A stretch of DNA of 33,420 bases from Microcaldota archaeon (GTDB lineage Archaea; Micrarchaeota; Micrarchaeia; Norongarragalinales; UBA97), in contig JACQBR010000005.1 of NCBI GenBank assembly GCA_016194335.1, positions 1 through 33,420 on the forward strand, read 5' to 3'. How positions within the stretch are numbered: the first letter of the stretch is position 1; every line of letters starts with the position of its first letter. The notes below the pieces were generated by a model. That model saw only the letters and a list, made by a program, of their open reading frames with translations. It did not search any database and was not told where the DNA came from. The position numbers and the translations under genes are program-made. Positions 2 to 27,319 of the stretch are shown here, piece by piece.

Positions 2-3000
2 AGTTTTGACAATGGCGTCGGGTCTTTCACCAACGACTCGAACCAGGGCTTCACAAGCTACATTAACGTAACAAGCACCGTCAAGACACTCACTTCCGCC
101 ATCGGTGCTAATGTGCGTTGGCGTGTTTATGCCAAGGACGGCGTGGGCCAGTGGAACGCCACGCCTGTTTACTCGTTCACGACGGTAAACTGCGGGGTTG
201 CCGACACGCAGCCGCCGCAATGGTCTTCGAATTCCACAAGTTCTGTCTGCACGGGCTCTGCAAGCGTCCTCTCTTCCTTCTGGACTGACAACGTCCAGCT
301 CTCGTCGTACGTGCTTCAGTTCGACAACGGAAGCGGAGCGTGGGTGAACGATTCTTCCGTAGCTGTTGGAGGGGCGTCTGCGTGGGTGAACGTGACAAAG
401 GGCCTCAACAACACGGTCCTCTCCACCATCCGCTGGCGCGTTTACGCCAACGACATTTCCGGAAACATGAACGCCACGCCCGTCCAGCAGTTCGACTCGC
501 GCGACTGCGAGCTTCCAAAGTTCTTCGACGCGCAGGCCAACAGCACCTGCGTGGGCGAGGCAGTCAACCTCTCGGCAAGATGGACTGACAACAACCGGCT
601 TTACGGCTTCATAATGAGTTACGACAACGGCAACGGCACGTTTGTGAATGATTCCGCCGTGGGGCTTAGTGGAGTGCAGGACTGGAGCAACGCGACTAAA
701 GTGATAACAGGACCGGTGGGCAGCACCGTGCGCTGGCAGGTGTTCGGCCAGGACTATTGGAACAATTGGAACAACACGCCAGTCTATTCCTTCACCGCGA
801 GGGATTGCTACGCGCCCGGTTGGTTTGATTACTCGTCGAACAACACCTGCGTGGGCAACCTAACTTCGTTCACCGCGCGCTGGAGCCACAACCTTGCGCT
901 CTCCAGCTACACCTTCAGCTTCGACAACGGCACGGGAACGTTCGCCAACGACTCGGCCGTGCAGTTCAGCGGCATTTCCAACTTCAGCAACTCCACCAAA
1001 TACATAAACCAGACCATAGGCGCGGCAATCAGGTGGAGATATTTCGCTTCCGACGCCTACGGCAATTCCAACGCCACTCCAATAGCGTCGTTCCAGACGG
1101 TCGATTGCCGCATTCCCGACGTGCAGCCGCCACAGTGGTCAAACAACCAGACCACCGGCACGCAATGCGGCGGGAGCCAGTCGGTCTTCTCCTCGTTCTG
1201 GCAGGACAACATGCAGCTTTCCGGCTATGTCCTGCAGTACGACTCCGGAAACGGGGTTTTCGCCAATGATTCGTTCGTCCCCCTCAACGCCCAGAACGCG
1301 TGGGTCAACATCACCAAGCAGCTCAACTCAACTTCAAACTCGCTCGTGCGCTGGCGCGTTTTCGCCAACGACACTTCCAACAACTGGAACGCGACTGGAA
1401 TAAACTCGTTCTACACCAGGGATTGCGAGCCGCCCAAGTGGTTTGAGAACTACACCAGCGCCATTTGCGCGGGACAGCCGGCAACGCTTGGGATGCGCTG
1501 GACGGACAATTACGCCCTTTACGGTCACATCTTCAGCTTCGACAACGGCTCGGGCGTTTTCGCCAACGATTCCGCAACGGGAATGTCTGGAGTGCAGGAC
1601 TGGAGCAATGCAACCAAAGCCCTCAACGCCACGGTGGGTGCAAACATCCGCTGGCGCGTTTACGCCCAGGACGCGTACGACAATTGGAACTCAACTCCCG
1701 TAATGTCGTTCCAGACGGTTTCGTGCGGCGGCGGGGGCGACACCCAGCCTCCCACCTATTCCAACAACCAGACCACGGGCACCTGCTCCGGCTCGACTTC
1801 AGTCCTCTCTTCCTACTGGACCGACAACGTCCAGCTTTACGGCTACATATTAAGTTTTGATAATGGAAGCGGCATGTTTTCCAACGATTCAATAGTTCCC
1901 CTTGGCGCTCCAACCGCATGGGTGAATATTTCAAGAGGCATCAACACCACTCCAGGTACAACGATTCGGTGGAGGGTGTTTGCAAACGACACTTCCAACA
2001 ACTGGAACGCAACCGGAATAAACTCAATCTCCACGCGCGACTGCGAGGCGGGAAAGTGGTTTGCCAACTCCACCAACAGCACGTGCTTCAACACCGCCGC
2101 CCGCCTTTCGCTTGGATGGACTGACAATTACGCCCTTTACGGCTACATCTTCAGCTACGACGAGGGCAACGGCGCGTTTGTCAACGACTCCCCCGCCCTC
2201 CTTTCGGGCACTCTCAACTGGACCAACTCCACCCGCCTCCTCTCCTCGCCTGCAGGCAGCCGGGTGAGGTGGAAGGTCTACACGCAGGACTTCTGGAGCA
2301 ACTGGAACGCCACTCCCGTCTTTTCCTTCACCATCAGCGACTGCGCCGCCCCGCATTGGTCCGGCGCCTCTTCGAACAACACCTGCACGGGAAACCTCAC
2401 GTCATTCTCGATGCTCTGGGCCGATGACAACGCGCTTGCCAATTCGGTGTTCAGCTTCGACAACGGGACGGGGACTTTTTCTGACGACCCCGCACAAACC
2501 ATGGCCGGGACGCAGGACTGGAGCAACGCCACGAAGTTCATCAACCAAACGCCGGGTTCCGCCATCCGCTGGCGCGTGAGGGCGTACGACGCCTCGGGCA
2601 ATTCCAACCTCTCCTCCACCTCGGCATTCAATGCCGTTGACTGCCGGATTCCCGACACTTCCGCCCCCGCCTACTCGAACCTGCAGCAAAGCACCATGTG
2701 CTCCTCCTCAACCTCGCTCCTCTCATCGCTCTGGAGCGACAACGTTGAAATTGCAGGCTTCATCTTCAGTTTCGACAACGGCACCGGCTCTTTCGCAAAC
2801 GACTCGTGGGCCCCGGTGGGATTGCAGTCGGCGTGGCTCAACGTCTCCAAACTCCTCAACAACAGCGTCTCTTCAGCCATCCGATGGCGCGTTTACGCAA
2901 ACGACACGTCCGGCAACTGGAACGCCACTCCCATCCAGCAGTTCACCTCGCGCGACTGCTCGGCGCCCCAGTGGTTTGACAACTTCACCAACTCCAGCTG

Positions 3001-5611
3001 CGCCGGGCAGGCCGCCACGCTGGGCGCGAGGTGGGCTGACAATTACGCGCTTTACAGCTTCATCTTCAGCTGGGACAACGGCACGGGCGCATTCACAAAC
3101 AACTCCGCAGTTGCAATGGCCGGGACGCAGGACTGGAGCAATTTCACCCTCCTGCTCAACCCCGCTGCCGGCTCCACCATCCGCTGGCGCGCCTTTGCGA
3201 GGGATTCCGCCAACAACTGGGCCGCCACCCCGTTAAGCACGTTCCAGACGGTGAATTGCGCCGTTCCCGACACCACGCCCCCCGCCTATTCCAACAACCA
3301 GACGATAGGAATGTGCTCCGGCTCGGCCGCCATCCTCTCGTCATTCTGGACCGACAACGTCCAGCTTTCCTCCTACATCCTCAGTTTCGACAACGGCTCG
3401 GGGACTTTCGCCAACGACTCTCTCGCCTCCATCGGCGGGCAGGGCGCGTGGGTGAACGTGACAAAGGCGCTCAACACCACTGTCCTCTCCACCATCCGCT
3501 GGCGCGTCTTCACTTCCGACGCTTCCAACAACTGGAACGCCACTCCAGTGCAGCAGTTCTCCACACTCGATTGCGAATCGCCCAAGTGGCTCTCCCAATC
3601 AAGGAACAACTCGTGCTCCGGGGTCCCGACGAAGTTTTCCACTCTTTGGACGGACAACAACCGCCTCTACGGCTACATCTTCAGCATCGACAACGGCAAC
3701 GGCACTTTCGCCAATGAGAGCGCAGCCGGCCTCAACGGCGTGGCGGACTGGGCCAACGCCACCGAACTTCTCAACGCCACTCCGGGCGCCACCGTCCGCT
3801 GGCAGGTCTACGCGCAGGACTTCTGGAACAACTGGAACGCGTCGCCAGTCTCCTCCTTCCAACTCACGGACTGCCAGGCGCCCAAGTTCGGAATGAACGC
3901 CTCGAGCAGCGCGTGCGCCGCCACCTACACGACTTTCCGGCTGCCGTGGACTGATAACGGCGGGCTTGCAAGCTACGTGGCGCAGTTCGACAACGGCACG
4001 GGCTCGTTCGTTTCCGACCCCCCGATGGCGTTCGGCGGGGCCGTTAACTGGAGCAACTTCACCAAGCTCGCAAGCACCACCCCCGGCGCCGTCATCCGCT
4101 GGCGCGTGAGCGCAACCGACGCCTCGGCCAATTCCAACACTTCCAACACGTATTCATACTCCACCCTCGACTGCCGCGCGGACAACACCCCGCCACTCTA
4201 TTACTTCCCGAGCTGGAGTTCCACGATTGCCGGCCTGCCCTCCAGCCACAACCTCTTCTGGACCGACGATTACAGCCTCTCGGGATTCATCTTCAGCTTC
4301 GACAACGGCACGGGCATTTTCGTCAACGACAGCTGGAGGCAGTTCGATTCCTTCAACAACAGCTGGAGCAACATCACCAAGACCCTTCCGCCCGTTGTCG
4401 GCGTAACAGTAAGGTGGATCGTGTATGCCAACGATTCCAACAACAACTGGAACGCCTCTCCCGCATATGCCTACCTCACCACCGACGAGCCGCCCAAATA
4501 TTTCGAGAACGCAGTGAACTCAACTGTCGCAGGGAAGCCCGCCTCGTTCTTCGTGCGCTGGACGGACAACCTCGCCCTTAACGGCTCGATATTCTCCTTC
4601 GACAACGGCAACGGGGTGTTCGCCAACGACTCCTTCGCGCCCTTCGGCGGCCGGTGGAACTACACCAACGCCACCAAGACCCTCAACCCGCGTGTCGGCG
4701 CGGTGATCCGCTGGCGCGTGTGGGCCAACGACTCGGGCAGCCTCGGCAACTTCACCCAGATCTATTCATTCACCACCGCCGCCGATTCGGGCGTGCCTTC
4801 GCTCATTTCGATGGGCGTGAACTCCACCTGCACTGGCGAGGCGGTGAGCTTCTCCACACTCTGGAGCGACCCGAACGGGTTCGGCTTCTTCATCTTCAGC
4901 GTCGACGAGGGCGACGGGTTTGCCAACTACTCTCCCACCCACGCGCCCGGCCACACGCTGGTTGCCGCAGAATTGGTAAAGCGCATCACCGACCAGGAGG
5001 GCAGTGCCGTGAGCTGGCGCGTTTACGCAACCAACGCCGTTGGACGCTCGAACGCCACGCCGGTGCAGACCTTCACCACCGCATCGTGCGCAGGACGGGG
5101 GTACGGCCCAGCCGGCGGCATCAGCGGAGGCGGCGGGGCAGGGAACAGCATCCCGGCGGGGCTTGAGGGCATCGACGACCGAACGCTTCTGGGGCCCGAA
5201 GTTTACCGCCTCCACCTCGCCTGCCCGTACGCCGTGGTGAACGCATCCGGGGAATTCACCGCCACGCACATTGCGGCCGGCCGGTTCTCCTGCAGCGGCG
5301 TAACGCTCAGCGCCGCCCGCACGGACGGGCTGCAGGTCGACCCCGGCGCCATCGCCGATTCGGGCTGCGTGGGCACGAGGCCCAAATTCGTAGTCACATT
5401 CCCGGCAAGCGGCGATTACATCATCACCGCCTCCAGCAGCGCGAGGCCAGGCCTTTCCACAAGCTGCATCGTGAACTATCAGGCAATCCGGCTCACGCCT
5501 GTAAAAGTCCCCGAGTTCAGCCTCCTGCTCCTCCCGCTAATTGCAATGCTGGCAGTGGGACTGATGAGAATCCGGAATAGGCGGAAAGAAAGCATGCGGA
5601 AAATGGGGTAA
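2..5611 (+). CDS. Giant tandem-repeat surface protein, 5' truncated by the window edge
   Basis: The reading frame is open from base 2, so the true start lies upstream; an internal ATG at 113 is only a Met inside a repeat. The visible 1869 residues are about 17 tandem domains of roughly 100 residues. Each carries FDNGxGxF, NDS, W(S/V)N(A/V)TK and (I/V)RWRVYAxD motifs and usually ends in a Cys. The pattern resembles fibronectin-III or Ig-like beta-sandwiches, but I cannot name the family. Each domain has several N-x-S/T sequons and one early plus one terminal Cys, which suits a glycosylated, disulfide-stabilised exported protein. After the repeats comes a Gly-rich linker and a non-repeat domain, then KVPEFSLLLLPLIAM, a hydrophobic helix and RIRNRRK. 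This resembles the PEF-CTERM signal processed by archaeosortases. Likely role: cell-surface or adhesion protein (inference). Confidence 0.85.
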   Translation, partial: SFDNGVGSFTNDSNQGFTSYINVTSTVKTLTSAIGANVRWRVYAKDGVGQWNATPVYSFTTVNCGVADTQPPQWSSNSTSSVCTGSASVLSSFWTDNVQLSSYVLQFDNGSGAWVNDSSVAVGGASAWVNVTKGLNNTVLSTIRWRVYANDISGNMNATPVQQFDSRDCELPKFFDAQANSTCVGEAVNLSARWTDNNRLYGFIMSYDNGNGTFVNDSAVGLSGVQDWSNATKVITGPVGSTVRWQVFGQDYWNNWNNTPVYSFTARDCYAPGWFDYSSNNTCVGNLTSFTARWSHNLALSSYTFSFDNGTGTFANDSAVQFSGISNFSNSTKYINQTIGAAIRWRYFASDAYGNSNATPIASFQTVDCRIPDVQPPQWSNNQTTGTQCGGSQSVFSSFWQDNMQLSGYVLQYDSGNGVFANDSFVPLNAQNAWVNITKQLNSTSNSLVRWRVFANDTSNNWNATGINSFYTRDCEPPKWFENYTSAICAGQPATLGMRWTDNYALYGHIFSFDNGSGVFANDSATGMSGVQDWSNATKALNATVGANIRWRVYAQDAYDNWNSTPVMSFQTVSCGGGGDTQPPTYSNNQTTGTCSGSTSVLSSYWTDNVQLYGYILSFDNGSGMFSNDSIVPLGAPTAWVNISRGINTTPGTTIRWRVFANDTSNNWNATGINSISTRDCEAGKWFANSTNSTCFNTAARLSLGWTDNYALYGYIFSYDEGNGAFVNDSPALLSGTLNWTNSTRLLSSPAGSRVRWKVYTQDFWSNWNATPVFSFTISDCAAPHWSGASSNNTCTGNLTSFSMLWADDNALANSVFSFDNGTGTFSDDPAQTMAGTQDWSNATKFINQTPGSAIRWRVRAYDASGNSNLSSTSAFNAVDCRIPDTSAPAYSNLQQSTMCSSSTSLLSSLWSDNVEIAGFIFSFDNGTGSFANDSWAPVGLQSAWLNVSKLLNNSVSSAIRWRVYANDTSGNWNATPIQQFTSRDCSAPQWFDNFTNSSCAGQAATLGARWADNYALYSFIFSWDNGTGAFTNNSAVAMAGTQDWSNFTLLLNPAAGSTIRWRAFARDSANNWAATPLSTFQTVNCAVPDTTPPAYSNNQTIGMCSGSAAILSSFWTDNVQLSSYILSFDNGSGTFANDSLASIGGQGAWVNVTKALNTTVLSTIRWRVFTSDASNNWNATPVQQFSTLDCESPKWLSQSRNNSCSGVPTKFSTLWTDNNRLYGYIFSIDNGNGTFANESAAGLNGVADWANATELLNATPGATVRWQVYAQDFWNNWNASPVSSFQLTDCQAPKFGMNASSSACAATYTTFRLPWTDNGGLASYVAQFDNGTGSFVSDPPMAFGGAVNWSNFTKLASTTPGAVIRWRVSATDASANSNTSNTYSYSTLDCRADNTPPLYYFPSWSSTIAGLPSSHNLFWTDDYSLSGFIFSFDNGTGIFVNDSWRQFDSFNNSWSNITKTLPPVVGVTVRWIVYANDSNNNWNASPAYAYLTTDEPPKYFENAVNSTVAGKPASFFVRWTDNLALNGSIFSFDNGNGVFANDSFAPFGGRWNYTNATKTLNPRVGAVIRWRVWANDSGSLGNFTQIYSFTTAADSGVPSLISMGVNSTCTGEAVSFSTLWSDPNGFGFFIFSVDEGDGFANYSPTHAPGHTLVAAELVKRITDQEGSAVSWRVYATNAVGRSNATPVQTFTTASCAGRGYGPAGGISGGGGAGNSIPAGLEGIDDRTLLGPEVYRLHLACPYAVVNASGEFTATHIAAGRFSCSGVTLSAARTDGLQVDPGAIADSGCVGTRPKFVVTFPASGDYIITASSSARPGLSTSCIVNYQAIRLTPVKVPEFSLLLLPLIAMLAVGLMRIRNRRKESMRKMG
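199..4780 (+). repeat. Higher-order repeat (ABC-AB) x3 in the surface protein gene
   Basis: Domain boundaries come in three flavours. A has a D-x-PP or DTxxP linker followed by Y/W, B has CE(P/L/S)PKWF-like text, and C has CxAP(G/H/K). They occur in the order ABC AB ABC AB ABC AB, followed by one last divergent domain. A-type boundaries fall near 199, 1117, 1738, 2650, 3268 and 4180, so spacings alternate near 915 and 615 bases. The five-domain superunit is therefore about 1.53 kb and is present three times. This indicates growth by duplication of a five-domain block. Confidence 0.75.
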
Positions 5612-9510: not shown

Positions 9511-9999
9511 CTAGAACTCCTTGTCAAACTTGCCCTCGTCGATGAGCTTCATCACTTCCTTGGGGCTCTTCCCTTCAACGGTTGCGCCGAGGCTGAGGCA
9601 CGTTCCGCACACTTCCTTAACGGCGCCTTTGGCGTCGTGCGCGAGAATCGAGCTGCCTTTCATCGAGGCGATTTTTTTCACCTGCGCAATCGTGAGGTTG
9701 CCTATGGCCTTCTTTCCCTTCACGCCCGCCTCTTCCTTCACGGGCGCGGCGAGCCCGAGTTCCTTCTTCACAAGAGCGCTGGTGGGCGGGGTGCCTACGG
9801 TAATCTCGAATGCCTTGGAGCCCTTCTCGAACTCGACCTTGACGGGCACCTGCATTCCCGCAAAGTCCTTTGTCTTCTCGTTGATTTTCGCAATCACGTC
9901 GTTGATCGGCAGGCCGCTGGGGCCGAGTGCCGGGCCGAGTGGCGGGGCTGCGCTTGCCTTGCCGCCCTCCACCATTGCCGCAATAGTCGTCTTGGCCAT
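9511..9999 (-). CDS. rpl11: Ribosomal protein uL11
   Basis: The first gene of the stalk cluster. L11 binds the GTPase-associated region of 23S rRNA next to L10. The N-terminal domain has the signature GGKASAAPPLGPALGP followed by GLPINDVIAKINEKT, and the C-terminal RNA-binding domain has KKIASMKGSS. I place the start at the MAKTTIAAM Met at 9999 (162 residues, typical for archaea). An ATG three codons upstream at 10008 is possible but would add an atypical MNT. It is divergent from the hydrolase gene and shares an AT-rich promoter region with it. Confidence 0.94.
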   Translation of the reverse strand: MAKTTIAAMVEGGKASAAPPLGPALGPSGLPINDVIAKINEKTKDFAGMQVPVKVEFEKGSKAFEITVGTPPTSALVKKELGLAAPVKEEAGVKGKKAIGNLTIAQVKKIASMKGSSILAHDAKGAVKEVCGTCLSLGATVEGKSPKEVMKLIDEGKFDKEF

Positions 10000-10082
10000 T
10001 GTGTTCAAAACACGCCCGTAGCTTGATGCAGTTTGAATGACTTAGAAATAGTTCAAACAGGAATAGATTACGCCGAGAAATT

Positions 10083-10142: not shown

Positions 10143-12929
10143 ATGTCCCAGGACTCGGACAAGCCATTCTACAAACGCGGCGATGCGCGCGCATTCGCCA
10201 TCACGGTCCTAATCGGGATTCTTCTCTTCCTCCTCCTTTCCGGAAGTGAAGGCGCGGGCAAAAACAAGATCAAACCATCGCCCGCACCCAATCCTCCCGC
10301 AATATCAAACAGCGTTTCCCAAAACTTTCTCGCCAACCAAACCCCGATTTCCCTCTTCCGGAACGCCACGCTCTCTCCCGACGGAAACAAGTCCGCTTAT
10401 AGCGACGAGATTCTCCTCACCAATTCCGGCAACAGTTCCATCCTCGCGGGGCTGATTGCCATCTTTCCCAAGGGGGCTGACGAGTCCGGCGCGAGCGCGG
10501 TTGAGATTTCTGCAGGCCCGAATTCCAACGTCACCTTCCTCTCCCCCAACCCCCTGGCCTACGCGAGCGAATCCAACCTCCATCCGGGCGAAAGCGGCTC
10601 GCTCAAAATCGTTTCGCAAAACTATCCGTTCAGCCGCCCTCCGGCAATACTGCTCGCCTCCCCGCCCCTCACCGCGGGCGAGACCGTAATGCTTGGGGCG
10701 TTTCTGGAGTCGGCTTCTAGATTGGAACTCGATTTCCCCGCATCGAGCGCGTTTTCAGAGATGGCTTCCGAAATCCTCTTCTCGCCCCTGCCGTTCGAAC
10801 GGAAAATCCCCTTAGCGAACGTTCTGGCAACCTCATTCTCCACGTCAACCTTTCTTTCAAGCGACGCGGACCGCAAAATTGCAGAGAAGACGCTGGCCAA
10901 AATCGCTTCATCAGGCGGTCCGCTTTCAGAAAGAATTGACGACGCGGCGCTCTTCGCGTCTTTCCTTAGGCGCGCGGCGTACTATTCCCAAAAGACCGGG
11001 AATTCCGCAAGTGGGATTATCCTGAAGTCGGAATCGATTCTCCTCTCGCCAACCCTTGGGCTGCAGGAAAAGTTTTCCTCCCTCGACGAGGCCATTTCGC
11101 CCCTTGAGCAAAAGGCGGGAATCGCCCCTGGGAGATCCCTGCTTTCAAGCGCTGGCAATGGCGCAGGGCCATCCGATGCAAATCCAAGCGCCAGCGGCAA
11201 CAACCCCCCGCCAACCGCCTCAGGCAACACGCAGTCCAGCGGCGGCAATTACGCCAACGGCCTCTTTCCCGCCATTCCCCCAAGGATGGATTTCACAGTA
11301 AGTGAAATGCAGCCGAGAAGCGAGAAGGAACTTTCCCTTGTTTCAAGCGTCGGGCTTGGCTATCCCGTGGTCGGGTTCACGGGCGAATCGCCACAATCGT
11401 TCAGCTCGCGGGCAACCGCAGCGGGGCTGAGGGAAAACAGGTTCGCAATTGCGGCGGACATTTCCCAAGAGGCAATCAATGACGACGGCGTGGTCGGGTT
11501 CGACTCCAAGAATGCCGATTTGCAGCTGAAATACTTCTCCCTCCCCGACAAGACGGGAACCGTCCCCCTTTCCGCGGCAGTGCGGCACCAGAGCCTGCAA
11601 CCCGCGCTCGATTACTATGGAATCGATTTTGGGGACAGCGAACCTACCGTGGGCGAGGCGCTCGCGGCAATCAACGAGGCAAGGCAGTGCAACCCTCTGG
11701 GAACTCTGGCGTACGCGGGAATAAAGGAATACTCGACAACTTCCGCCGATGCCAACGGGCTTTTCTGCCCCGTTGTGGGGAGAATCACTTCCGGCTTCGG
11801 CCCGCGTTCCAAACCCTGCGCCACGTGCAGCGGCAACCACCAGGGGCTGGACATCGCGGCGTCGGAAGGGACGCCCGTGAAAGCGCCCGTTGACGGCGTG
11901 GTGACGCAGGAATTCCACGACAAGTACTGCGGCAACGGGCTGAAAATAAGCCACGGCAGCGATTCGCAAGGCCGCTCTTTTGCCACTGGCTATTGCCACC
12001 TGTCGAAGATAATCGCCCGTGCCGGAACGCAGGTGAAAAAAGGCGATGTTGTGGGGCTGGCCGGAAGCACGGGCTCGGCAACGGGCCCGCATCTGCACTG
12101 GATCGTCTACATAAACGGGAAGAAGAATGACCCCGCGCCGTATTACAGACCGTGCACCACTGCGGTTGCGGCTTCAAGCACTCCGGCCGTTCCAGCCGCA
12201 TCATCCAACTCCGCCCTCCAGCCGCCTTCAAGCGCCCCAGCCGCTGCCCCTGCGCCCGCATCGGCCTCAAGCCCCAACGCTCCCGCCCAATCTCCCCCCT
12301 CGGCCGAAGCATCATCCCAACCTCCAGGCCAACCGCAAACCCTTTCAACCGGCCTTGACCAGAACGGGTGCGTCACCAAGGATTTCTTCTACGGCCAAGA
12401 CATTTCCAACACCACGGCAGGAAGCACGTCCCTCCGGGGCTTCCCGAGCATTTCGCAAAAGACTGTGGAAAGCATTATTGGCCATTACGGTTCTCCGGCA
12501 CTCTTAGAGCCGGGATTCCCTCAGTGCGTAATGAGCGCGGGCGCCAACGCCCAGATGGACCCAGTCTTTTTTCTCGCATGGTCGCTGCATGAAACCGCGC
12601 TGGGAAATACCGGAGTGGGAACGCCTGAGAAGGCAAAGAACATGGGCGGGCTGAGCAAGGGCATTGCCGACGCTCCCGGAATCGCCACGACGCTCTACTA
12701 CGCGCCGAAACACGCTTACAAGAAGTATTCGAGTTACTGCGATTATGCCAAAGACTGGTTTGCATATATGAATCGAATGTACGTGAACAAGGGCCAGGGA
12801 ACTGTCGAGCAAATCATCCCCATCTATGCCCCTTCAAGTGATGGGAACGACGTGGACGGATACGTAAAGACGATACGGGCAGTAGTTGCGAGATGGCGTT
12901 TGCAGGAGCAGAATTCCAAAACGGCCTGA
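10143..12929 (+). CDS. Membrane-anchored two-domain cell-wall hydrolase (M23 peptidase plus glucosaminidase-like)
   Basis: A 928-residue protein. One N-terminal membrane helix at about residues 18-36 is followed by roughly 500 residues of Ser/Ala-rich extracytoplasmic sequence of unknown fold. The M23/LytM metallopeptidase domain spans about 540-670. Its zinc ligands are visible: H566 and D570 in HQGLD, and H650/H652 in PHLHW. Several Cys around it suggest disulfides. A Pro/Ala/Ser-rich linker (about 672-735) leads to a C-terminal domain (about 745-925) with PVFFLAWSLHETALGNTG, a candidate catalytic Glu, and IYAPSSDGNDVDGY, as in glucosaminidase or lysozyme-like hydrolases (PF01832-like). The pair would cut peptide and glycan bonds of murein, which archaea lack. 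Targets could be bacterial walls or another envelope polymer. It ends three bases from the convergent pheT. Confidence 0.85.
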   Translation: MSQDSDKPFYKRGDARAFAITVLIGILLFLLLSGSEGAGKNKIKPSPAPNPPAISNSVSQNFLANQTPISLFRNATLSPDGNKSAYSDEILLTNSGNSSILAGLIAIFPKGADESGASAVEISAGPNSNVTFLSPNPLAYASESNLHPGESGSLKIVSQNYPFSRPPAILLASPPLTAGETVMLGAFLESASRLELDFPASSAFSEMASEILFSPLPFERKIPLANVLATSFSTSTFLSSDADRKIAEKTLAKIASSGGPLSERIDDAALFASFLRRAAYYSQKTGNSASGIILKSESILLSPTLGLQEKFSSLDEAISPLEQKAGIAPGRSLLSSAGNGAGPSDANPSASGNNPPPTASGNTQSSGGNYANGLFPAIPPRMDFTVSEMQPRSEKELSLVSSVGLGYPVVGFTGESPQSFSSRATAAGLRENRFAIAADISQEAINDDGVVGFDSKNADLQLKYFSLPDKTGTVPLSAAVRHQSLQPALDYYGIDFGDSEPTVGEALAAINEARQCNPLGTLAYAGIKEYSTTSADANGLFCPVVGRITSGFGPRSKPCATCSGNHQGLDIAASEGTPVKAPVDGVVTQEFHDKYCGNGLKISHGSDSQGRSFATGYCHLSKIIARAGTQVKKGDVVGLAGSTGSATGPHLHWIVYINGKKNDPAPYYRPCTTAVAASSTPAVPAASSNSALQPPSSAPAAAPAPASASSPNAPAQSPPSAEASSQPPGQPQTLSTGLDQNGCVTKDFFYGQDISNTTAGSTSLRGFPSISQKTVESIIGHYGSPALLEPGFPQCVMSAGANAQMDPVFFLAWSLHETALGNTGVGTPEKAKNMGGLSKGIADAPGIATTLYYAPKHAYKKYSSYCDYAKDWFAYMNRMYVNKGQGTVEQIIPIYAPSSDGNDVDGYVKTIRAVVARWRLQEQNSKTA

Positions 12930-12932
12930 TTT

Positions 12933-14591
12933 TCATTCCCCCGCGAAAATCTCAAGGGCAGCGCAGGGGGCCTGCAGCCCGAAATTCGCAAGCACTTCCG
13001 GGTGCACTTCGCCAACGACGCCGGCTTTCTTCGCGTCAATCCACACTTCGGCACACCTGCCGGGAATGAATTGCGGCGAGGTGAATTTGCCAAGCGCAAA
13101 GCTTTTTCCCAACCGCTTGGCAAGCTCCATCCCCGCGCTGGCGGCTTCAGTCATCGAGGCGGCGGCGTGCGCGGCGACAATGCAGGCGTGCAGCCTCGTC
13201 TCCATCTTTTCGTGCAGCTTGGGGTTGGGCACTACGACCTCGCCCACCTCGAAAACCCTCTGGGGGTAGTCGTTGTGCGTGTTTTGCGAAAGCACCTCGA
13301 GAAGGTTGGGCAATAGCGTCCCGCGCATGGCGGAATAGTCTCGGCTCACGGGGTTGAGCACTTCCACGAGCTCCTCGCCGCTTTTTGCCTTCCTTATTTT
13401 CTCCCCGTTGGTGAGCACATAGGTTGAGAGTTCCAGATAGCCCGCCCCGGTGAAAAAGTCGCGCAGAATCTGCTCGTGGAGCGTCTGGGGCGCGAGGCTG
13501 CCCTTGGTGAATGCGGTTGGCGCAAGAGGCTCGAAATTGTCGTAACCGTTGCCTATCGCAACCTCCTCCACCAAATCGGCAGGGTGCAGGAAATCCGCCC
13601 TGTAGGCAGGAATTTCGCAATGCACGAAATCGCCCTCCACCCTGGCGTCAATGCGCTGTTTTGCAAGGCACGCAACGACGTGGGCAGGGGAAAACTGCAC
13701 TCCCAGCATTTTGTTCACCTGCGAAACCGACACCTTCATCCCATCGCTTTTGGTGTCCGGGGTGAAGACATTCCTCCCGTCGGGGTAGCTTACCTCGCAC
13801 CGCGTGACCTTCGCCCCGGCCTCGGCAAAATCCTGGCAGAACATCGCGAGGCTGGCGTTGCACGAGTGCCAGTCGGTCCCCTCGTTCTCAATGAGCAGCC
13901 GCGTGGTATTCTCGGTAACCGCCGAGGTCGCCTCGTTGATGATGGGAATGAGCCCGAGCACCAGCCCGTCAGCGCCCTGGAGCACCGGGAGGTTCTTGTG
14001 CCCCTCAACGAGCTTGGCGTATTCCATTCCTTTCGGAATCGTCTCGACCATCTGCCTCAGCGTCATTGGGGAGGTGGCCTTGAGCGGGACGAACTTGGTC
14101 TTCTCAGCATCCGCCGTCCTGAACCTGATTGGGAACGCGACCTTGTCCGCGTCGTAAAGCCCGAAGCTCACGCGCTTGCGGTTGCGCCCGATTGTGGCGT
14201 TGATTTTTTCCTGCGTCTCGAAAAGCGACGCGACGTCATCGTGGGAGAACTTCAACCCTTCAACCACCGCGCCCACCATCACCGGCCGAATGGCCGCGGC
14301 ATCCTTCTCCACAATTATCTTGTGCCCGGACGAATCGGAAATGCGGGTCTTCGGCGAGCCCGCTTCAATCCCGAGCGTCCCCTTCAACGCTCGCGCCACG
14401 CCGTAGGCGCTGAGGAGGTCGGGCCGGTCGGGAGTGATTTCAAGCGTGAGGCCGTCGGTCTTCTCGTCATGGCTTTCAAGCACGACCTTGGCAAGCTCGA
14501 GCCTGTAGCCCAGCTCGTCGAGGTCCTTGAATTTCACCCCATTGCCCAAAAGGGCCACGAGCTGTTTTTTCCTTACCGTTATGGTGACCAT
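12933..14591 (-). CDS. pheT: Phenylalanyl-tRNA synthetase beta subunit
   Basis: A 552-residue archaeal/eukaryal-type beta subunit of the tetrameric enzyme that charges tRNA-Phe. Visible family features are the B3/B4 editing region (around GYRLELAKVVLE, EITPDRPDLLSAYGVARAL and the later PIINEATSAV), the B5 domain (MKVSVSQVNKMLGVQ, YRADFLHPADLVEEVAIGNGY) and the catalytic-like core (PVSRDYSAMRGTLLPNLLEVL). Length is usual for archaea. The start is the MVTITVRKK Met. It is the last gene of the rnz-pheT operon, 29 bases after pheS, so the two subunits are co-expressed. Confidence 0.95.
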   Translation of the reverse strand: MVTITVRKKQLVALLGNGVKFKDLDELGYRLELAKVVLESHDEKTDGLTLEITPDRPDLLSAYGVARALKGTLGIEAGSPKTRISDSSGHKIIVEKDAAAIRPVMVGAVVEGLKFSHDDVASLFETQEKINATIGRNRKRVSFGLYDADKVAFPIRFRTADAEKTKFVPLKATSPMTLRQMVETIPKGMEYAKLVEGHKNLPVLQGADGLVLGLIPIINEATSAVTENTTRLLIENEGTDWHSCNASLAMFCQDFAEAGAKVTRCEVSYPDGRNVFTPDTKSDGMKVSVSQVNKMLGVQFSPAHVVACLAKQRIDARVEGDFVHCEIPAYRADFLHPADLVEEVAIGNGYDNFEPLAPTAFTKGSLAPQTLHEQILRDFFTGAGYLELSTYVLTNGEKIRKAKSGEELVEVLNPVSRDYSAMRGTLLPNLLEVLSQNTHNDYPQRVFEVGEVVVPNPKLHEKMETRLHACIVAAHAAASMTEAASAGMELAKRLGKSFALGKFTSPQFIPGRCAEVWIDAKKAGVVGEVHPEVLANFGLQAPCAALEIFAGE

Positions 14592-19009: not shown

Positions 19010-22000
19010 ATGGCCAGGAAGGCTTCCTCGGTGGGTGCAAAGGCTATTTCCCCAGCCAAGGCCATGCGCCTTGAAGCGGCAGGCAAGCCCGCAAAATTCG
19101 TCCGCGGCCACGCGCCCAGAAGCAGGTTCAAGACCGGAAAGGCAAGCCCGCAGGACGGCGCGAAGGAATCGGAAATAGAGGCGAAGGAAGAAAGGAAATA
19201 CGAGCCCAAGTTCGAGAATGTGAAGAGCACCGCGGAAGTCGAGGTCCCCAAGGCGCTTGTCGAGCAGGTCATCGGCCAGGAGAGGGCGGTGAAAATCATC
19301 CGCAAGGCCGCGATGCAGAAGAGGAACGTGCTGCTCGTCGGCTCTCCGGGCACGGGAAAGAGCCTCCTCGCGCAGGCAATGGCGGAATTGCTTCCCGTGG
19401 GCGAACTCGAGGACGTCCTTGTCGCGGCCAACCTCGAGGACGAGAACCAGCCGAAGATAAAAGTCGTGCGCGCGGGGGAGGGAAGGAAAATCCTCCAGCA
19501 GGAACGCATGCGCGGGGCGATTCCCGGCTCGAACAACAACCTCCTCCTAATCGCCATTCTCTTCATCTCCTCCTTCCTTCTCCTCACTTACGGCCGGAAG
19601 CAGCTGGGCGACATCATCACCGCCGCGCTGCTCATAGGCCTGCTCATCATGGGCGCGATGGTGATGTTCGCCTCGTCAATGGGAAAGCGCGGCCTCTTCA
19701 CGCAGACTTTCGACGGGGTGAAGCTCCTCATCGACAACGCCAACAGGAAGAAAGCGCCGTTCATCGAAGCTACGGGCACGAGGGCGGGCGCATTACTCGG
19801 CGATTGCAGGCACGATCCACTTCAGACATTTTGGCCCTACTCGACAGTACTCAAAAAGGAGGGCGAAATGTTTGTTCCGATCGTGATGAAGCGTTTGGTT
19901 GACTCATTACTCGAAAAATATCCTGATTTAGTGGATAGGAGCACGCCGGGTTATGACGGGTTGGTAATTCCAGAATCGGAAGAAATTTACGTTGCAGGCT
20001 ACTCGGACGCCAAGATAGTTCCAGTTAGGCTTTTGTGCGTGAACAGAAAGGCATACTGCAATCCAATGAGAGTAGTTGCCTCAAATGGCCAAAGACTCAT
20101 AGTCACCCCCGAGCACAAGGTCTTTTCCGACGGGCAATTCGTAGAAGCTGCCGACCTGCCCGAAACCCCCCGGCTGTTGGCATTCAAGCCTGAGGTAATC
20201 TCGGACGAAGACGTTCTTAAAACATTCTCTCAAAGAGATGTTGCCTCCGCAAGGAAGTATTGCGAATTTTTGAGGGAAAAAGCAAACCACCCCGAATTCG
20301 GCTACAAGCGCTTCTCTAAAATCCTCCAAATCAAGGAAGGATGCACTCGATGGTGGCACACTGCAGGCTCCAAACCCGGCCCAGTAAAGACTGTGGAATT
20401 CCTCAAAAACCGCAATCTATTGCCCCTCTCGCAGGATGACGCCCGCATCCCTGCGATAGCAAGGGTGCTTGGAACCGCTTTTGGCGACGGCGGCATAGCC
20501 GGCAACCTCAACAACATGTTCCTTTCCTCGGCCGAAGAAAGTTCCCTTGATGGTTTCAGGAGAGATTTGACTGAAATTTTCGGGGAGGAAATCCAGAATA
20601 ACTTCTCTACCATCAAGAGCGGGGTTAACGGCACAGGCCGTTGCATCAGGAATTCAAATCGGGCGGTCGTAAGGTTCTTCGCAGCCCTAGGCGCTCCAAT
20701 CGGGAGAAAGAACGCGAACCTCGCCATTCCCCCGTGGATTTACCTGAATGAAGACGCTTTGAAAGAATTCTTCGGGGCATACTTGGGCAACGAGTTTTGC
20801 AGCCCTGCCTTCAGGTCCGATGGCCACTGCCTGAGTTCATTCGACGTAGCTATGTGCGGAACGGAAAAAACCAGGGCCAACAGGTTGGCTTTCCTCAAGG
20901 AGTTGGCGGACTATCTCAGAAGCTACGGAGTGAAGAGCACCTCAATTTCCGAACACGAATACAGGCCGGGCCGCCTCATGTGGAGGCTGCTCATTTCAAG
21001 AGAGTTGGAAAACGTGCTTAAATTCCAGAAACTCATCCCCGTTCGCTACTCGAATGACAAAGTTGCCAGGTTGAACAGTGCAGTCGCAGCGATGTCAGAG
21101 CTCAAACTGGCAAAATACTCCGAACTGCGTTCCCGGGGAAAAGGTAATCAGTACATCCTCAACCACCTCAGGTCGCCGGCGGTAATGCTGGAAATGATGC
21201 GGGAAAAGGAAGGCCTTCACTTGGATGCGTCTTCGGAAATATTCTACGACGGGACTATCTACAACGTAACGACCGAGTCGGGCAACGTGTTCGCCAACGG
21301 AATCCTCGCAAGCAACTCCGGCGGCCTGGGCACTCCCCCCCACATGCGCGTTGAAGTGGGGATGATCCACCGAGCGAACAAGGGAGTTCTTTTCGTTGAT
21401 GAGATAGCGACCCTTTCCGCCCGCTCGCAGCAGGAACTGCTTACCGCCATGCAGGAGAAGAAATATTCCATCACGGGGCAGAGCGAGGCTTCAAGCGGCG
21501 CGCTGGTGAAGACCGAACCCGTCCCCACGGATTTCATCCTCGTCGCAAGCGGCAACTACCAGGACGTGAACAAGGTGCATCCCGCGCTGCGCTCGCGCAT
21601 CCGCGGCTACGGCTACGAGGTGTACATGGAGGACAGCCTTGCAGACACTGCCCAAAACCGCAACCTGCTCGTGCAGTTCATCGCGCAGGAAGTGGTGAAG
21701 GACGGCCGCATCCCGCATTTCGACCGCAGCGCCATTGACGAGATAATCAGCGAGGCGCGAAGGCGGGCGGGGAGGAAGAACCGCCTTACCGCAAAATTGC
21801 GCGAGCTCGGCGGCCTCATACGCGCGGCTGGGGATGTTGCGAAGGAAAGGCAGCTTGCGCTCGTGACGGCCGTGGAGGTCGTGGAGGCGAAGAAAATCGC
21901 CCAGACTCTCGAGCAGCAGGCGGCGCAGCAGATTATCGACGTGCGCAAGGAATACCGCGTGTTCGCCACTGGCGGATTCCAGACAGGCAGGGTCAACGGG

Positions 22001-22564
22001 ATGGCGGTGATGGGCGACAGCGGAATCATCCTGCCAATCGTTGCGGAAGTCGCGCCCGCCGCGTCGCGCGACGAAAGCCGCATAATCGCAACCGGCAAGC
22101 TGGGGAGCATCGCGAAGGAAGCGGTTGAAAACGTTTCTGCAATCATCAAGAAACACACCGGCAAGGACACTTACAGCTTTGACATCCACATCCAGTTCCT
22201 CCAGACTTACGAAGGCGTGGAGGGCGACAGCGCAAGCATCTCGGTCGCAACCGCCGTCATCAGCGCCCTTGAAGGAGTGGGAGTGGACCAGTCTGTCGGG
22301 ATGACCGGCTCGCTTTCAGTCAGGGGCGAAGTGCTCCCCGTCGGCGGCGTGACGCAGAAAGTAGAGGCGGCGGTGGAAACCGGCCTCACCACCGTGCTGA
22401 TTCCCAAGGCGAACCTCGGCGACCTCTACCTCGACGGCGAAAAGGCCAAGAAAATCAAGGTCATTCCCGTGAGCAACATCTACGAAGTGCTCGAGCACTC
22501 CCTAAAGGACGGCAGCGCGAAGGAAAAACTCCTCTCCAAAATCAGTAAGGAATTTGCAGGATAG
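19010..22564 (+). CDS. lonB: Archaeal LonB protease precursor with an in-frame intein
   Basis: A 1184-residue precursor. Removing the intein (residues 273-769) leaves 687 residues, close to usual LonB length. LonB is a membrane-anchored ATP-dependent protease that degrades misfolded and regulatory proteins. In order it shows a basic N-terminal extension of about 75 residues, the AAA+ module with Walker A GSPGTGKS (111-118), two membrane helices typical of LonB (about 176-194 and 203-226), the GALLGDCRHDPLQ-SGGLGTPPH segment split by the intein, and Walker B GVLFVDEI. The protease domain has the Ser-Lys dyad S1074 (EGDSAS) and K1117 (GGVTQK), 43 residues apart as in characterised Lons. The enzyme should be active only after splicing. 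Confidence 0.95.
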   Translation: MARKASSVGAKAISPAKAMRLEAAGKPAKFVRGHAPRSRFKTGKASPQDGAKESEIEAKEERKYEPKFENVKSTAEVEVPKALVEQVIGQERAVKIIRKAAMQKRNVLLVGSPGTGKSLLAQAMAELLPVGELEDVLVAANLEDENQPKIKVVRAGEGRKILQQERMRGAIPGSNNNLLLIAILFISSFLLLTYGRKQLGDIITAALLIGLLIMGAMVMFASSMGKRGLFTQTFDGVKLLIDNANRKKAPFIEATGTRAGALLGDCRHDPLQTFWPYSTVLKKEGEMFVPIVMKRLVDSLLEKYPDLVDRSTPGYDGLVIPESEEIYVAGYSDAKIVPVRLLCVNRKAYCNPMRVVASNGQRLIVTPEHKVFSDGQFVEAADLPETPRLLAFKPEVISDEDVLKTFSQRDVASARKYCEFLREKANHPEFGYKRFSKILQIKEGCTRWWHTAGSKPGPVKTVEFLKNRNLLPLSQDDARIPAIARVLGTAFGDGGIAGNLNNMFLSSAEESSLDGFRRDLTEIFGEEIQNNFSTIKSGVNGTGRCIRNSNRAVVRFFAALGAPIGRKNANLAIPPWIYLNEDALKEFFGAYLGNEFCSPAFRSDGHCLSSFDVAMCGTEKTRANRLAFLKELADYLRSYGVKSTSISEHEYRPGRLMWRLLISRELENVLKFQKLIPVRYSNDKVARLNSAVAAMSELKLAKYSELRSRGKGNQYILNHLRSPAVMLEMMREKEGLHLDASSEIFYDGTIYNVTTESGNVFANGILASNSGGLGTPPHMRVEVGMIHRANKGVLFVDEIATLSARSQQELLTAMQEKKYSITGQSEASSGALVKTEPVPTDFILVASGNYQDVNKVHPALRSRIRGYGYEVYMEDSLADTAQNRNLLVQFIAQEVVKDGRIPHFDRSAIDEIISEARRRAGRKNRLTAKLRELGGLIRAAGDVAKERQLALVTAVEVVEAKKIAQTLEQQAAQQIIDVRKEYRVFATGGFQTGRVNGMAVMGDSGIILPIVAEVAPAASRDESRIIATGKLGSIAKEAVENVSAIIKKHTGKDTYSFDIHIQFLQTYEGVEGDSASISVATAVISALEGVGVDQSVGMTGSLSVRGEVLPVGGVTQKVEAAVETGLTTVLIPKANLGDLYLDGEKAKKIKVIPVSNIYEVLEHSLKDGSAKEKLLSKISKEFAG
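19826..21316 (+). mobile_element. LonB intein with LAGLIDADG homing endonuclease
   Basis: A 497-residue insertion between HDPLQ and SGGLG, the conserved site also used by Pyrococcus Lon inteins. The splicing block with TPEH (T366, H369 of the precursor) is present, and the C-terminal block is NVFANGILASN followed by Ser+1. Endonuclease motifs are VLGTAFGDGG (D493) and FFGAYLGNEF (E595 as the probable second acid). The first intein residue appears to be Thr, not Cys or Ser, and the penultimate residue is Ser where His is usual. The DNA is less GC-rich at third positions than the flanking extein, a sign of separate origin. Confidence 0.9.
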
Positions 22565-23275: not shown

Positions 23276-23641
23276 ATGGGCTTTCTGGACAGGCTTTTCG
23301 GATCCGGCGCAGGCGCTCCGGTAGACGTGGAGGGCGCGATGAACTCCCTAGAGGACGAGGACATCGATTTGCTCCACGAACCCGCCCAATACTACGTCAA
23401 GCCCCTCTCGCTCGAGAACGACGGCGACATCGCCATCGTGGAAGGCGAGCTGAAGGCGAAGAACGTCGTGCTTCTCAACATCGCGCCCATCGCGCGCAAC
23501 CCCGCGAGGCTCCAGGAGGCCATGGGGCGCCTGAGGAGCACCGCGTCGGCCCTTGACGGCGACATCGCGCGCATCAGCGAGGACAAGGTCATCATCACCC
23601 CGGCAATGATGAAAATCGTGAAAAGCACCAAGAAGCACTGA
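23276..23641 (+). CDS. sepF: SepF, FtsZ membrane anchor
   Basis: A 121-residue archaeal SepF. The short amphipathic N-terminus MGFLDRLFGSG fits a membrane-targeting helix. After an acidic linker the SepF core begins with YYVKPLSLENDGDIAIVEGE and includes NVVLLNIAPIARNPARLQEAM and RISEDKVIITPAMMK. It polymerises or dimerises at the membrane and tethers FtsZ. It lies 43 bases after the PRC-barrel gene and 159 bases before ftsZ in the same direction. The last codons are part of an imperfect tandem repeat that continues beyond the stop. Confidence 0.9.
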   Translation: MGFLDRLFGSGAGAPVDVEGAMNSLEDEDIDLLHEPAQYYVKPLSLENDGDIAIVEGELKAKNVVLLNIAPIARNPARLQEAMGRLRSTASALDGDIARISEDKVIITPAMMKIVKSTKKH

Positions 23642-23720
23642 CGAAGCATTGAAGGAGCTATAACCAAGAAGGCACTTACGAAACATCCAGAGGCTCTGAA
23701 GGAGCTAACCAAGAAGCACT
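23628..23720 (+). repeat. Imperfect tandem repeat spanning the sepF stop
   Basis: CCAAGAAG(G)CACT recurs at 23628, 23664 and 23709. The units are 36 and 45 bases, both ending GAAGGAGCTA(TA)A, with a partial third copy. The sepF stop lies in the first copy. A frame through the later copies reads ALKELTKKHW but lacks a usual start codon. Confidence 0.6.
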
Positions 23721-23786
23721 GGGGAAAAGCCGGTGTGAAGCCGGTTCGCGATAATGGCAGTTAATGGCAAAAACCCTGTTTTGATC

Positions 23787-23792
23787 GGAGGT
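23787..23792 (+). promoter_or_regulatory. Strong ribosome-binding site of ftsZ
   Basis: GGAGGT eight bases before the ATG at 23801. It is the best Shine-Dalgarno match noted in the window and fixes the ftsZ start. Confidence 0.7.
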
Positions 23793-23800
23793 CGTTTGGC

Positions 23801-24901
23801 ATGTTGGAAGACATTGTGAAGAGCGCGATGAACTCGCCGAGGCAGTCGGTGCACGACAGTGCGGATGAGGAGATCAAGATAAGCGTAATCGGGGTGGGCG
23901 GCGGCGGGAACAACACGATCAACCGCCTCAGGCGACTGGGGGTGAAGGGCGCGCAACTAATTGCGATGAACGCCGACAGGCAGCACCTTTCAATGATTGA
24001 CGAGGGCATCACAAAGATGCTCATAGGCAAGAGCGTCACCCGCGGCCTTGGCTGCGGAGGCTTTCCCGAAGTGGGGGCCAAGTGCGCCGAGGTCGACCGC
24101 AAGCAGATTGAGGAGCTGGTCGGCGGCAGCCACCTCGTGTTCATCTGCGCCGGAATGGGAGGCGGCACCGGAACCGGAGCGGCTCCCGTGGTCGCGGAAG
24201 TGGCGCGCGCGCAGGGCGCAATCGTCATCGCCATGGTCACCTACCCATTCGCGCTCGAGAGGGCGCGCACCGTGAAGGCCGAGGAAGGCATCGCCCGGCT
24301 GCGCGAGATTGCCGACAGCACCATCATCCTTGACAACAACCGCCTCGTGCAGCTGGTTCCCAACCTGCCGATGAACCAGGCGTTTCTCGTCGCGGACGAG
24401 ATTCTCGCCAAGGCAATCGACGGCCTCGTCTTCACCATCACCCAGCCCTCGCTTGTCAACATCGACTTTGCCGACGTGAAGGCCATCATGAGCCAAGGGG
24501 ACGTGGGAATGATAGCTGTTGGAAGCGGGAAGGGCACGAACAAGGTCGAGGAGGCAGTCAACGGCGTGCGCACCAACCGCCTTCTTGACGTGGACTTCAC
24601 CGGAGCCAAGGGCGCCCTCATCCACATCGCAGGCGGCCACGACCTCACCCTCGGGGACGCCATCCACGCGGGCGAGCGCATCACCGAAGAGATGGACGCG
24701 CACGCGAGCGTCAAGTGGGGCGCGAGGCTCGTTCCCGACTACGACGGCAAGCTCGAGATTACGGCCATCGTCACCGGCGTGAACTCGCCGCAAATCGCGG
24801 GCAAGACCCACACGATGACATCAAGCCACGGGATGGGCGGAAGGCACGGCGGCAAGGCAGCTGCCTCCGAAGAATTCGGCGGAATCGAAGTCATAGGTTA
24901 A
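23801..24901 (+). CDS. ftsZ: Cell division protein FtsZ
   Basis: A 366-residue tubulin-like GTPase that forms the division ring. The GTP-binding region has ISVIGVGGGGNNTINRL near residues 27-43 and the signature GGGTGTG at 120-126. The catalytic T7 loop is NIDFAD (220-225), so it should hydrolyse GTP on polymerisation. The N-terminal 25 residues are variable. The C-terminus after the core is short (SHGMGGRHGGKA and then EEFGGIEVIG); the end may be a SepF-binding tail. It is the third gene of the PRC-barrel, sepF, ftsZ set. Whether it is FtsZ1 or FtsZ2 cannot be settled here. Confidence 0.96.
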   Translation: MLEDIVKSAMNSPRQSVHDSADEEIKISVIGVGGGGNNTINRLRRLGVKGAQLIAMNADRQHLSMIDEGITKMLIGKSVTRGLGCGGFPEVGAKCAEVDRKQIEELVGGSHLVFICAGMGGGTGTGAAPVVAEVARAQGAIVIAMVTYPFALERARTVKAEEGIARLREIADSTIILDNNRLVQLVPNLPMNQAFLVADEILAKAIDGLVFTITQPSLVNIDFADVKAIMSQGDVGMIAVGSGKGTNKVEEAVNGVRTNRLLDVDFTGAKGALIHIAGGHDLTLGDAIHAGERITEEMDAHASVKWGARLVPDYDGKLEITAIVTGVNSPQIAGKTHTMTSSHGMGGRHGGKAAASEEFGGIEVIG

Positions 24902-26656: not shown

Positions 26657-26705
26657 CATGGGAAAGTATTAATTCAAGTATGACAAATTACTATTGGTGG
26701 TAATA

Positions 26706-26948
26706 ATGACTTACGTCACCGTTCACGTCAACGAGAAGGGGCAGGTGGTAATCCCCAAATTCCTCCGTGAGGCTTACGGGATTGAACCCAACAGCGAGGT
26801 TCTTATCGGGGAGAAGGAGGACTCTCTGGTCATAGAACGAAAGCTCAGCGTCAAGGAGTTCGCCTCGGCACTTGATTCCTTCCCCAAACGAACGGGAGTC
26901 AAGGTTGACAGCGATGCGGATTACGCCGAAGAGATGGAATCCAGATGA
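26706..26948 (+). CDS. vapB: AbrB/MazE-type antitoxin
   Basis: An 80-residue antitoxin. The swapped-hairpin DNA-binding fold is seen in VTVHVNEKGQVVIPKFLREA and YGIEPNSEVLIGEKEDSLVIER; the C-terminal part (KEFASALDSFPKRTG) would wrap the toxin. I chose the ATG at 26706 because GGTGG lies five bases before it; a TTG four codons upstream is less likely. The stop overlaps the toxin start by four bases (ATGA), so the two are translationally coupled. The pair probably represses its own promoter. Confidence 0.88.
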   Translation: MTYVTVHVNEKGQVVIPKFLREAYGIEPNSEVLIGEKEDSLVIERKLSVKEFASALDSFPKRTGVKVDSDADYAEEMESR

Positions 26949-27319
26949 ACTACGTTGACGCAAACGTCATCATCTACGCGTTGACCGACAGGGAGACTAA
27001 AGGAAGAAAATCGCGGGAACTGCTTGCCAACCAAAGGCTCTGCACAAGCATCCTGTCACTTGACGAGGTTGCCTACAAACTCTCCAAACGCTCAAAGAAG
27101 GACGCGATTGCAGCCGTGGACATTCTCAGCCACTCTCCAACCCTGTTGCTTGTTCCGTTTCTGCCCCAAGACGTTGATCAGTTCAAGTCGCTGCTTGAAG
27201 GGTTTGATCCGCGGGATGCGATTCACGCACTCACCGCAACCAAAATGCGGGCTTCAATAATCTACTCTGAAGACCCTGATTTTGACCAGCTTGCCATCGC
27301 GAGAAAAACCCCGTGGTGA
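26945..27319 (+). CDS. vapC: PIN-domain toxin, VapC-like ribonuclease
   Basis: A 124-residue PIN domain, predicted Mg-dependent endoribonuclease. Acidic active-site residues are all present: D5 (VDANVIIY), E41 (SLDEVAYKL), D91 (RDAIHAL) and D110/D112 (SEDPDFDQL). Length is typical of VapC. It overlaps the antitoxin gene by four bases. The pair lies between two copies of a gene's 3' end, next to a transposase remnant, which suggests recent acquisition. Confidence 0.9.
   Translation: MNYVDANVIIYALTDRETKGRKSRELLANQRLCTSILSLDEVAYKLSKRSKKDAIAAVDILSHSPTLLLVPFLPQDVDQFKSLLEGFDPRDAIHALTATKMRASIIYSEDPDFDQLAIARKTPW

Follow-up and report, generated by a model that had tools for sequence, protein, structure and literature searches.

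A recent study describes modular archaeal peptidoglycan hydrolases with bacteria-killing activity (Strock et al. 2025, PMC12352652) and defines such proteins by at least one catalytic domain and at least one cell-wall-binding domain. Woesearchaeota and Pacearchaeota, both DPANN archaea, encode large extracellular murein-like lytic transglycosylase proteins for which an attack on bacterial walls, or binding to them, has been proposed (PMC8204110, PMC9723730), and an extracellular M23B peptidase encoded in a Micrarchaeota genome, Ca. Norongarragalinales, has been suggested to serve in defence or predation (PMC8561730).

Here we analyze a Micrarchaeota gene from a 33,420-nucleotide stretch of DNA ("the window") whose product is probably a surface-tethered, two-enzyme lysin directed against bacterial peptidoglycan, with catalytic modules exchanged among its relatives. 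The proteins of Strock et al. likewise carry M23 and other wall-cutting domains, show evidence of domain shuffling, and are proposed to act against bacteria; the present one differs in having a predicted membrane anchor and two catalytic domains, and in being part of an anchor family that extends across its order. We recognize no cell-wall-binding domain in the window protein, in which a Pfam scan matched M23 alone, so that by the definition of PMC12352652 the catalytic part is present and the binding part is absent; the published archaeal screen would miss such proteins, since it requires a cell-wall-binding domain. The 2025 study makes an antibacterial hydrolase in an archaeon less surprising than the preliminary description of this locus had held. 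The Woesearchaeota and Pacearchaeota proteins differ in enzyme class and lineage, with no common scaffold demonstrated, and PMC8561730 mentions neither an anchor module nor a second enzyme, nor any exchange of cassettes. Our searches of the open-licence literature gave no description of the anchor family or of the head exchange; an order-specific N-terminal anchor module of ~500 residues bearing different cassettes is the new element described here.

Domain architecture and the two putative enzymes

The gene is a single uninterrupted open reading frame with the coordinates reported previously. It lies between rpl11 and pheT, with the following features (positions in the window, strand, residues, and basis):

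9511..10008, minus: rpl11, divergent neighbor that marks the conserved slot (synteny)
10143..12929, plus: gene for the membrane-anchored M23 and GH73-like protein, 928 aa (ORF; syntenic relatives)
10176..10238, plus: predicted membrane anchor, residues 12-32 (helix in AlphaFold model)
10302..10658, plus: first beta-sandwich (Ig-like) domain, residues 54-172 (model; generic Ig/CBM-like Foldseek matches)
10674..11114, plus: helical region, residues 178-324 (model)
11127..11258, plus: disordered linker, residues 329-372 (pLDDT < 50)
11286..11585, plus: second beta-sandwich domain, residues 382-481 (alignment A2; model)
11760..12152, plus: M23 (LytM-type) metallopeptidase, residues 540-670 (PF01551; PDB relatives; motif check)
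12153..12377, plus: Ala/Pro/Ser-rich linker, residues 671-745 (sequence)
12465..12917, plus: GH73-like N-acetylglucosaminidase domain, residues 775-925 (family alignment, profile, fold, motifs)
12933..14591, minus: pheT, convergent neighbor, in an arrangement repeated in genomes G001 and G004 (synteny)

The M23 domain is matched by PF01551 over residues 565-664 (E=7.7e-25; 87.4 bits, where the cut-off is 28.7), and its zinc/catalytic pattern HxxxD...H...HxH is complete (H566, D570, H619, H650, and H652), so the complete zinc site noted earlier is correct. Its relatives of solved structure in the PDB include the LytM-type endopeptidases ShyA, lysostaphin, and LytM, which share sequence and the full zinc motif with it but differ in domain context. 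EnvC and NlpD also turn up as weak matches, and degenerate M23 regulators are known to exist; a non-catalytic binding or regulatory role of this kind for the M23 or the GH73 domain is nevertheless very improbable, given the complete site in the window protein, the M23 heads with intact zinc motifs in relatives from genomes G001, G003, G007, and G012, and the invariant Glu of the GH73-like domain. A second, standalone M23 gene is present in the window's own genome (G000, contig C2, L056:9749-10342, minus strand), where it adjoins an AAA_14/DUF4143 gene.

The glucosaminidase-like domain of the preliminary description stands on indirect grounds. The direct check of residues 745-925 failed, as PF01832 gave no match even at E<=1 to the whole protein, to the domain alone, or in the same genome; the relatives, profile, and fold support the assignment. 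Weak PF01832 matches (best E=9e-7), below the curated cut-off (best 29.6 versus 30.2 bits), are found in six of the seven family members, and a family profile retrieves the GH73 structures of FlgJ and LytB (E 6e-4 to 4e-3). The candidate catalytic Glu, E817, lies in an E[ST]xxG motif and is invariant across the 7 sequences, and a YAP motif is found at residue 895. When the AlphaFold model of the domain (pLDDT 72, pTM 0.73) is searched with Foldseek, the first 19 matches are all GH73 enzymes (best E 2.9e-3, probability 1.00), among them AtlE, LytB, SagB, AtlA, FlgJ, and Auto. The C-terminal domain is thus assigned as GH73-like through its relatives and predicted fold rather than through a Pfam match of its own. 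The domain has fold and catalytic Glu in common with GH73 autolysins and endolysins (AtlE, LytB, SagB, FlgJ) but is too divergent for Pfam, and the nearest non-archaeal relatives that we found are from Chloroflexota.

In a tree of GH73 domains, the archaeal sequences cluster (94/76) separately from the mostly Chloroflexota ones. A standalone GH73 gene of G004 is the partner of the window head (100/98), and a standalone gene of G001 is that of the fused G003 head (98/87). Such pairings would fit a movement of domains between standalone genes and fused ones, although only tentatively because the branches are long. The standalone GH73-like genes L039:9615-10286 and L042:9068-9724 lie near a GCD14-like methyltransferase gene in G001 and G004 alike and may therefore have a conserved place too.

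The N-terminal anchor module and its chromosomal slot

The ~500 residues before the M23 domain, previously left unassigned, can now be described as an order-specific anchor or ectodomain module, comprising in the model a helix (residues 12-32), a beta-sandwich, a helical region, a disordered stretch, and another beta-sandwich. The mean pLDDT of this model is 76 and its pTM 0.53, which leaves the arrangement of the domains uncertain. The helix agrees with the membrane anchor proposed earlier; basic residues precede it, predicting an N-in, C-out orientation, and in G025 the equivalent N-terminus resembles a lipobox (AFAGC). Conservation within the module is highest at P379, E388, G449, F453, D454, and H482 (alignment A2), which fall in the second beta-sandwich and its edges. 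Foldseek matches to the module are generic and Ig/CBM-like, and an apparent likeness to alpha-hemolysin-type pores is spurious (rmsd ~25 A).

We surveyed a sample of 29 genomes of the order and 266 other genomes of the class. An initial scan of genome contigs with the whole window protein gave no match. A profile of the module (A2) matches 17 of the 29 order genomes but, among the 266 others sampled in the class, none (Fisher p=3e-20), which answers the earlier suggestion to examine the distribution in related genomes; some of the matched proteins, in G000:C17, G002, G011, and G013, are weakly similar paralogs that lack a hydrolase.

Where its position can be read, the gene often lies antisense at a largely fixed chromosomal site: in the window and G001 it is flanked by rpl11 and pheT, in G004 it adjoins pheT where the contig ends, in G015, G019, G025, and G028 it is flanked by spt5 and rpl11, and in G006 and G017 it adjoins spt5. 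The slot is empty in G005, G010, G012, and G013, where the gap between spt5 and rpl11 is 7-42 bp, and the two module copies of G012 lie elsewhere, outside the spt5-rpl11 slot. This conserved position, together with the tight closure of the empty slots, indicates an old, largely vertical locus rather than a recent import. We also considered whether the lysin might come from a virus or phage, or be misbinned, instead of being a cellular archaeal protein. M23 and GH73 domains are common in phage lysins, and PHROG matches were obtained for the window M23, but the gene is surrounded by archaeal ribosomal, pheST, LonB, and FtsZ genes, is syntenic in several genomes, has a GC content close to that of its neighbors, and has relatives of its GH73 domain in just two viral contigs, all of which makes a viral or artefactual origin barely credible.

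A role in the cell's own envelope, with the enzymes working on a polymer that the archaeon itself makes, perhaps during division, is suggested by the vertical retention of the anchor and by the proximity of the gene to ftsZ1-secE-spt5 and rpl11 clusters in several relatives. Since several genomes of the order have an empty slot, however, the gene is not essential for division. The window carries a sepF-ftsZ pair at 23276-24901, and each genome of the order has between two and five FtsZ matches that fall into clearly distinct identity groups; the slot-side ftsZ of the relatives is a different paralog, not the orthologue of the window's ftsZ, and the window gene itself is therefore not ftsZ-linked. 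We consider an own-envelope role unlikely, also on the evidence of the catalytic heads and of murein synthesis given below.

Differing, probably exchanged catalytic heads among relatives

The same module is fused to varied C-termini, including M23, NlpC/P60, GH73, SLT-like, Amidase_3, GDSL, and phosphoesterase domains, in the following combinations:

Window: M23 and GH73
G001: M23 and an SLT-like head
G003: M23, GH73, NlpC/P60, Amidase_3, and a last domain
G004: NlpC/P60 and an SLT-like head
G006, G017, G019, G025, and G028: NlpC/P60
G007: M23
G026: NlpC/P60 and GH73
G012: GDSL and M23, in two copies
G015 (L123:492-3062, minus strand): metallophosphoesterase and M23 without the motif residues, in the slot between spt5 and rpl11

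The genes of G003 and G007 are incomplete at contig ends, the module being mostly off the contig in G003 and split over two contigs in G007; the last domain of the G003 protein shares 40% identity with the end of the G007 one. An SLT/GH23 identity for the second head of G001 and G004 has a motif in its favor but neither Pfam nor PDB support and is not claimed. Not every head is a wall hydrolase, as the phosphoesterase and the M23 domain stripped of its motif residues in G015 illustrate.

The heads differ even within one genus, to which G007 and G026 belong, whose modules are 45% identical over 241 aa. On the module tree, the M23/NlpC label switches three times, two of them forced by well-supported branches, and most deep branches are weak. 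Furthermore, both domains are commoner in the order than elsewhere in the class: M23 in 15/29 versus 52/266 genomes (p=3e-4) and NlpC/P60 in 8/29 versus 11/266 (p=1e-4).

Bacterial polymorphic toxins follow a similar plan, in which the N-terminal part is conserved and the C-terminal catalytic parts are exchanged. The window locus differs from these in that no immunity gene stands beside the lysin gene, whose neighbors are rpl11 and pheT; such a gene would be needless in a cell without murein. We suggest that the anchor and stalk would act as a constant display platform on which catalytic heads can be replaced, because the relatives keep both but carry non-homologous cassettes, mostly of wall-degrading folds.

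Murein synthesis in the host and the proposed target

The genes around the lysin gene in the window are archaeal (ribosomal proteins, pheST, LonB, and FtsZ/SepF), and the named relatives of its C-terminal domain are Ca. Micrarchaeota (e.g., CG1_02_55_22, CG08_land, and BP5.bin122). PBP transpeptidases (PF00905) are found in none of the 29 genomes of the order, with all 10 bacterial controls positive. PF08245 matches occur once per genome in 17 of the 29 and were rejected as Mur ligases, 16 having a FolC-type GKGS P-loop and one being truncated but FolC-like. With no PBP transpeptidases and all Mur-ligase-like matches attributable to FolC, no route to murein is seen, and the archaeon appears to make no peptidoglycan; the genomes are incomplete, so this absence is strong rather than absolute.

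These results sharpen the preliminary description, which had noted that archaea have no murein and had named bacterial neighbors, a host polymer, or the cell's own envelope as targets. The archaeal host and the missing murein machinery are borne out, and we infer bacterial neighbors as the best-supported target, because one anchor bears several unrelated folds that mostly share peptidoglycan as a substrate. Unrelated heads cutting different bonds fit one external polymer better than an endogenous one, and no PBP or Mur ligase was found, which makes the own envelope the less likely target. M23 and GH73 folds might act on other polymers, but a lysin against bacterial walls is the simplest reading, since the common substrate of the heads is one that the archaeon appears not to make.

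As a surface-tethered lysin, the protein would be held by its membrane helix and its stalk of two beta-sandwiches and a helical region so that the enzymes lie outside the cell, where the M23 domain would cleave peptide cross-links of bacterial peptidoglycan on contact and the GH73-like domain its glycan backbone. Such a platform would open or kill adjacent bacteria, or remodel the wall of a bacterial partner. The latter, a local thinning for attachment or exchange without killing, would suit a protein predicted to be tethered rather than secreted, and DPANN archaea are mostly predicted to be episymbionts, some proposed to live on bacteria on similar grounds (PMC8204110). Set against this, the partner reported for Micrarchaeota in culture is the archaeon Cuniculiplasma (PMC5498576), and we regard remodelling without killing as possible but rather doubtful. 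Sequence alone cannot separate it from killing, nor feeding, competition, and partnership from one another.

More broadly, an archaeal display platform at a largely fixed site with evolutionarily exchanged wall-cutting heads, serving contact-dependent attack or dependence on bacteria by ultra-small Micrarchaeota, is a plausible though tentative generalization of the lysin reading. If true, a DPANN lineage has kept its surface platform while changing its wall-cutting tools. That would point to an interaction with bacteria of long standing, and which organisms serve these archaea as partners or food would become a testable question.

The window contains several further features: a repetitive surface protein of great length that is open at the window start and has no Pfam match (2-5611); a LonB protease ORF whose AAA domain is split by a ~500-residue insert, intein-like by sequence and matching no Pfam intein family (19010-22564); a MazE/AbrB-like antitoxin and PIN-domain toxin pair (26694-27319); and the start of a transposase-like HTH protein that runs off the contig end (33018-33420).
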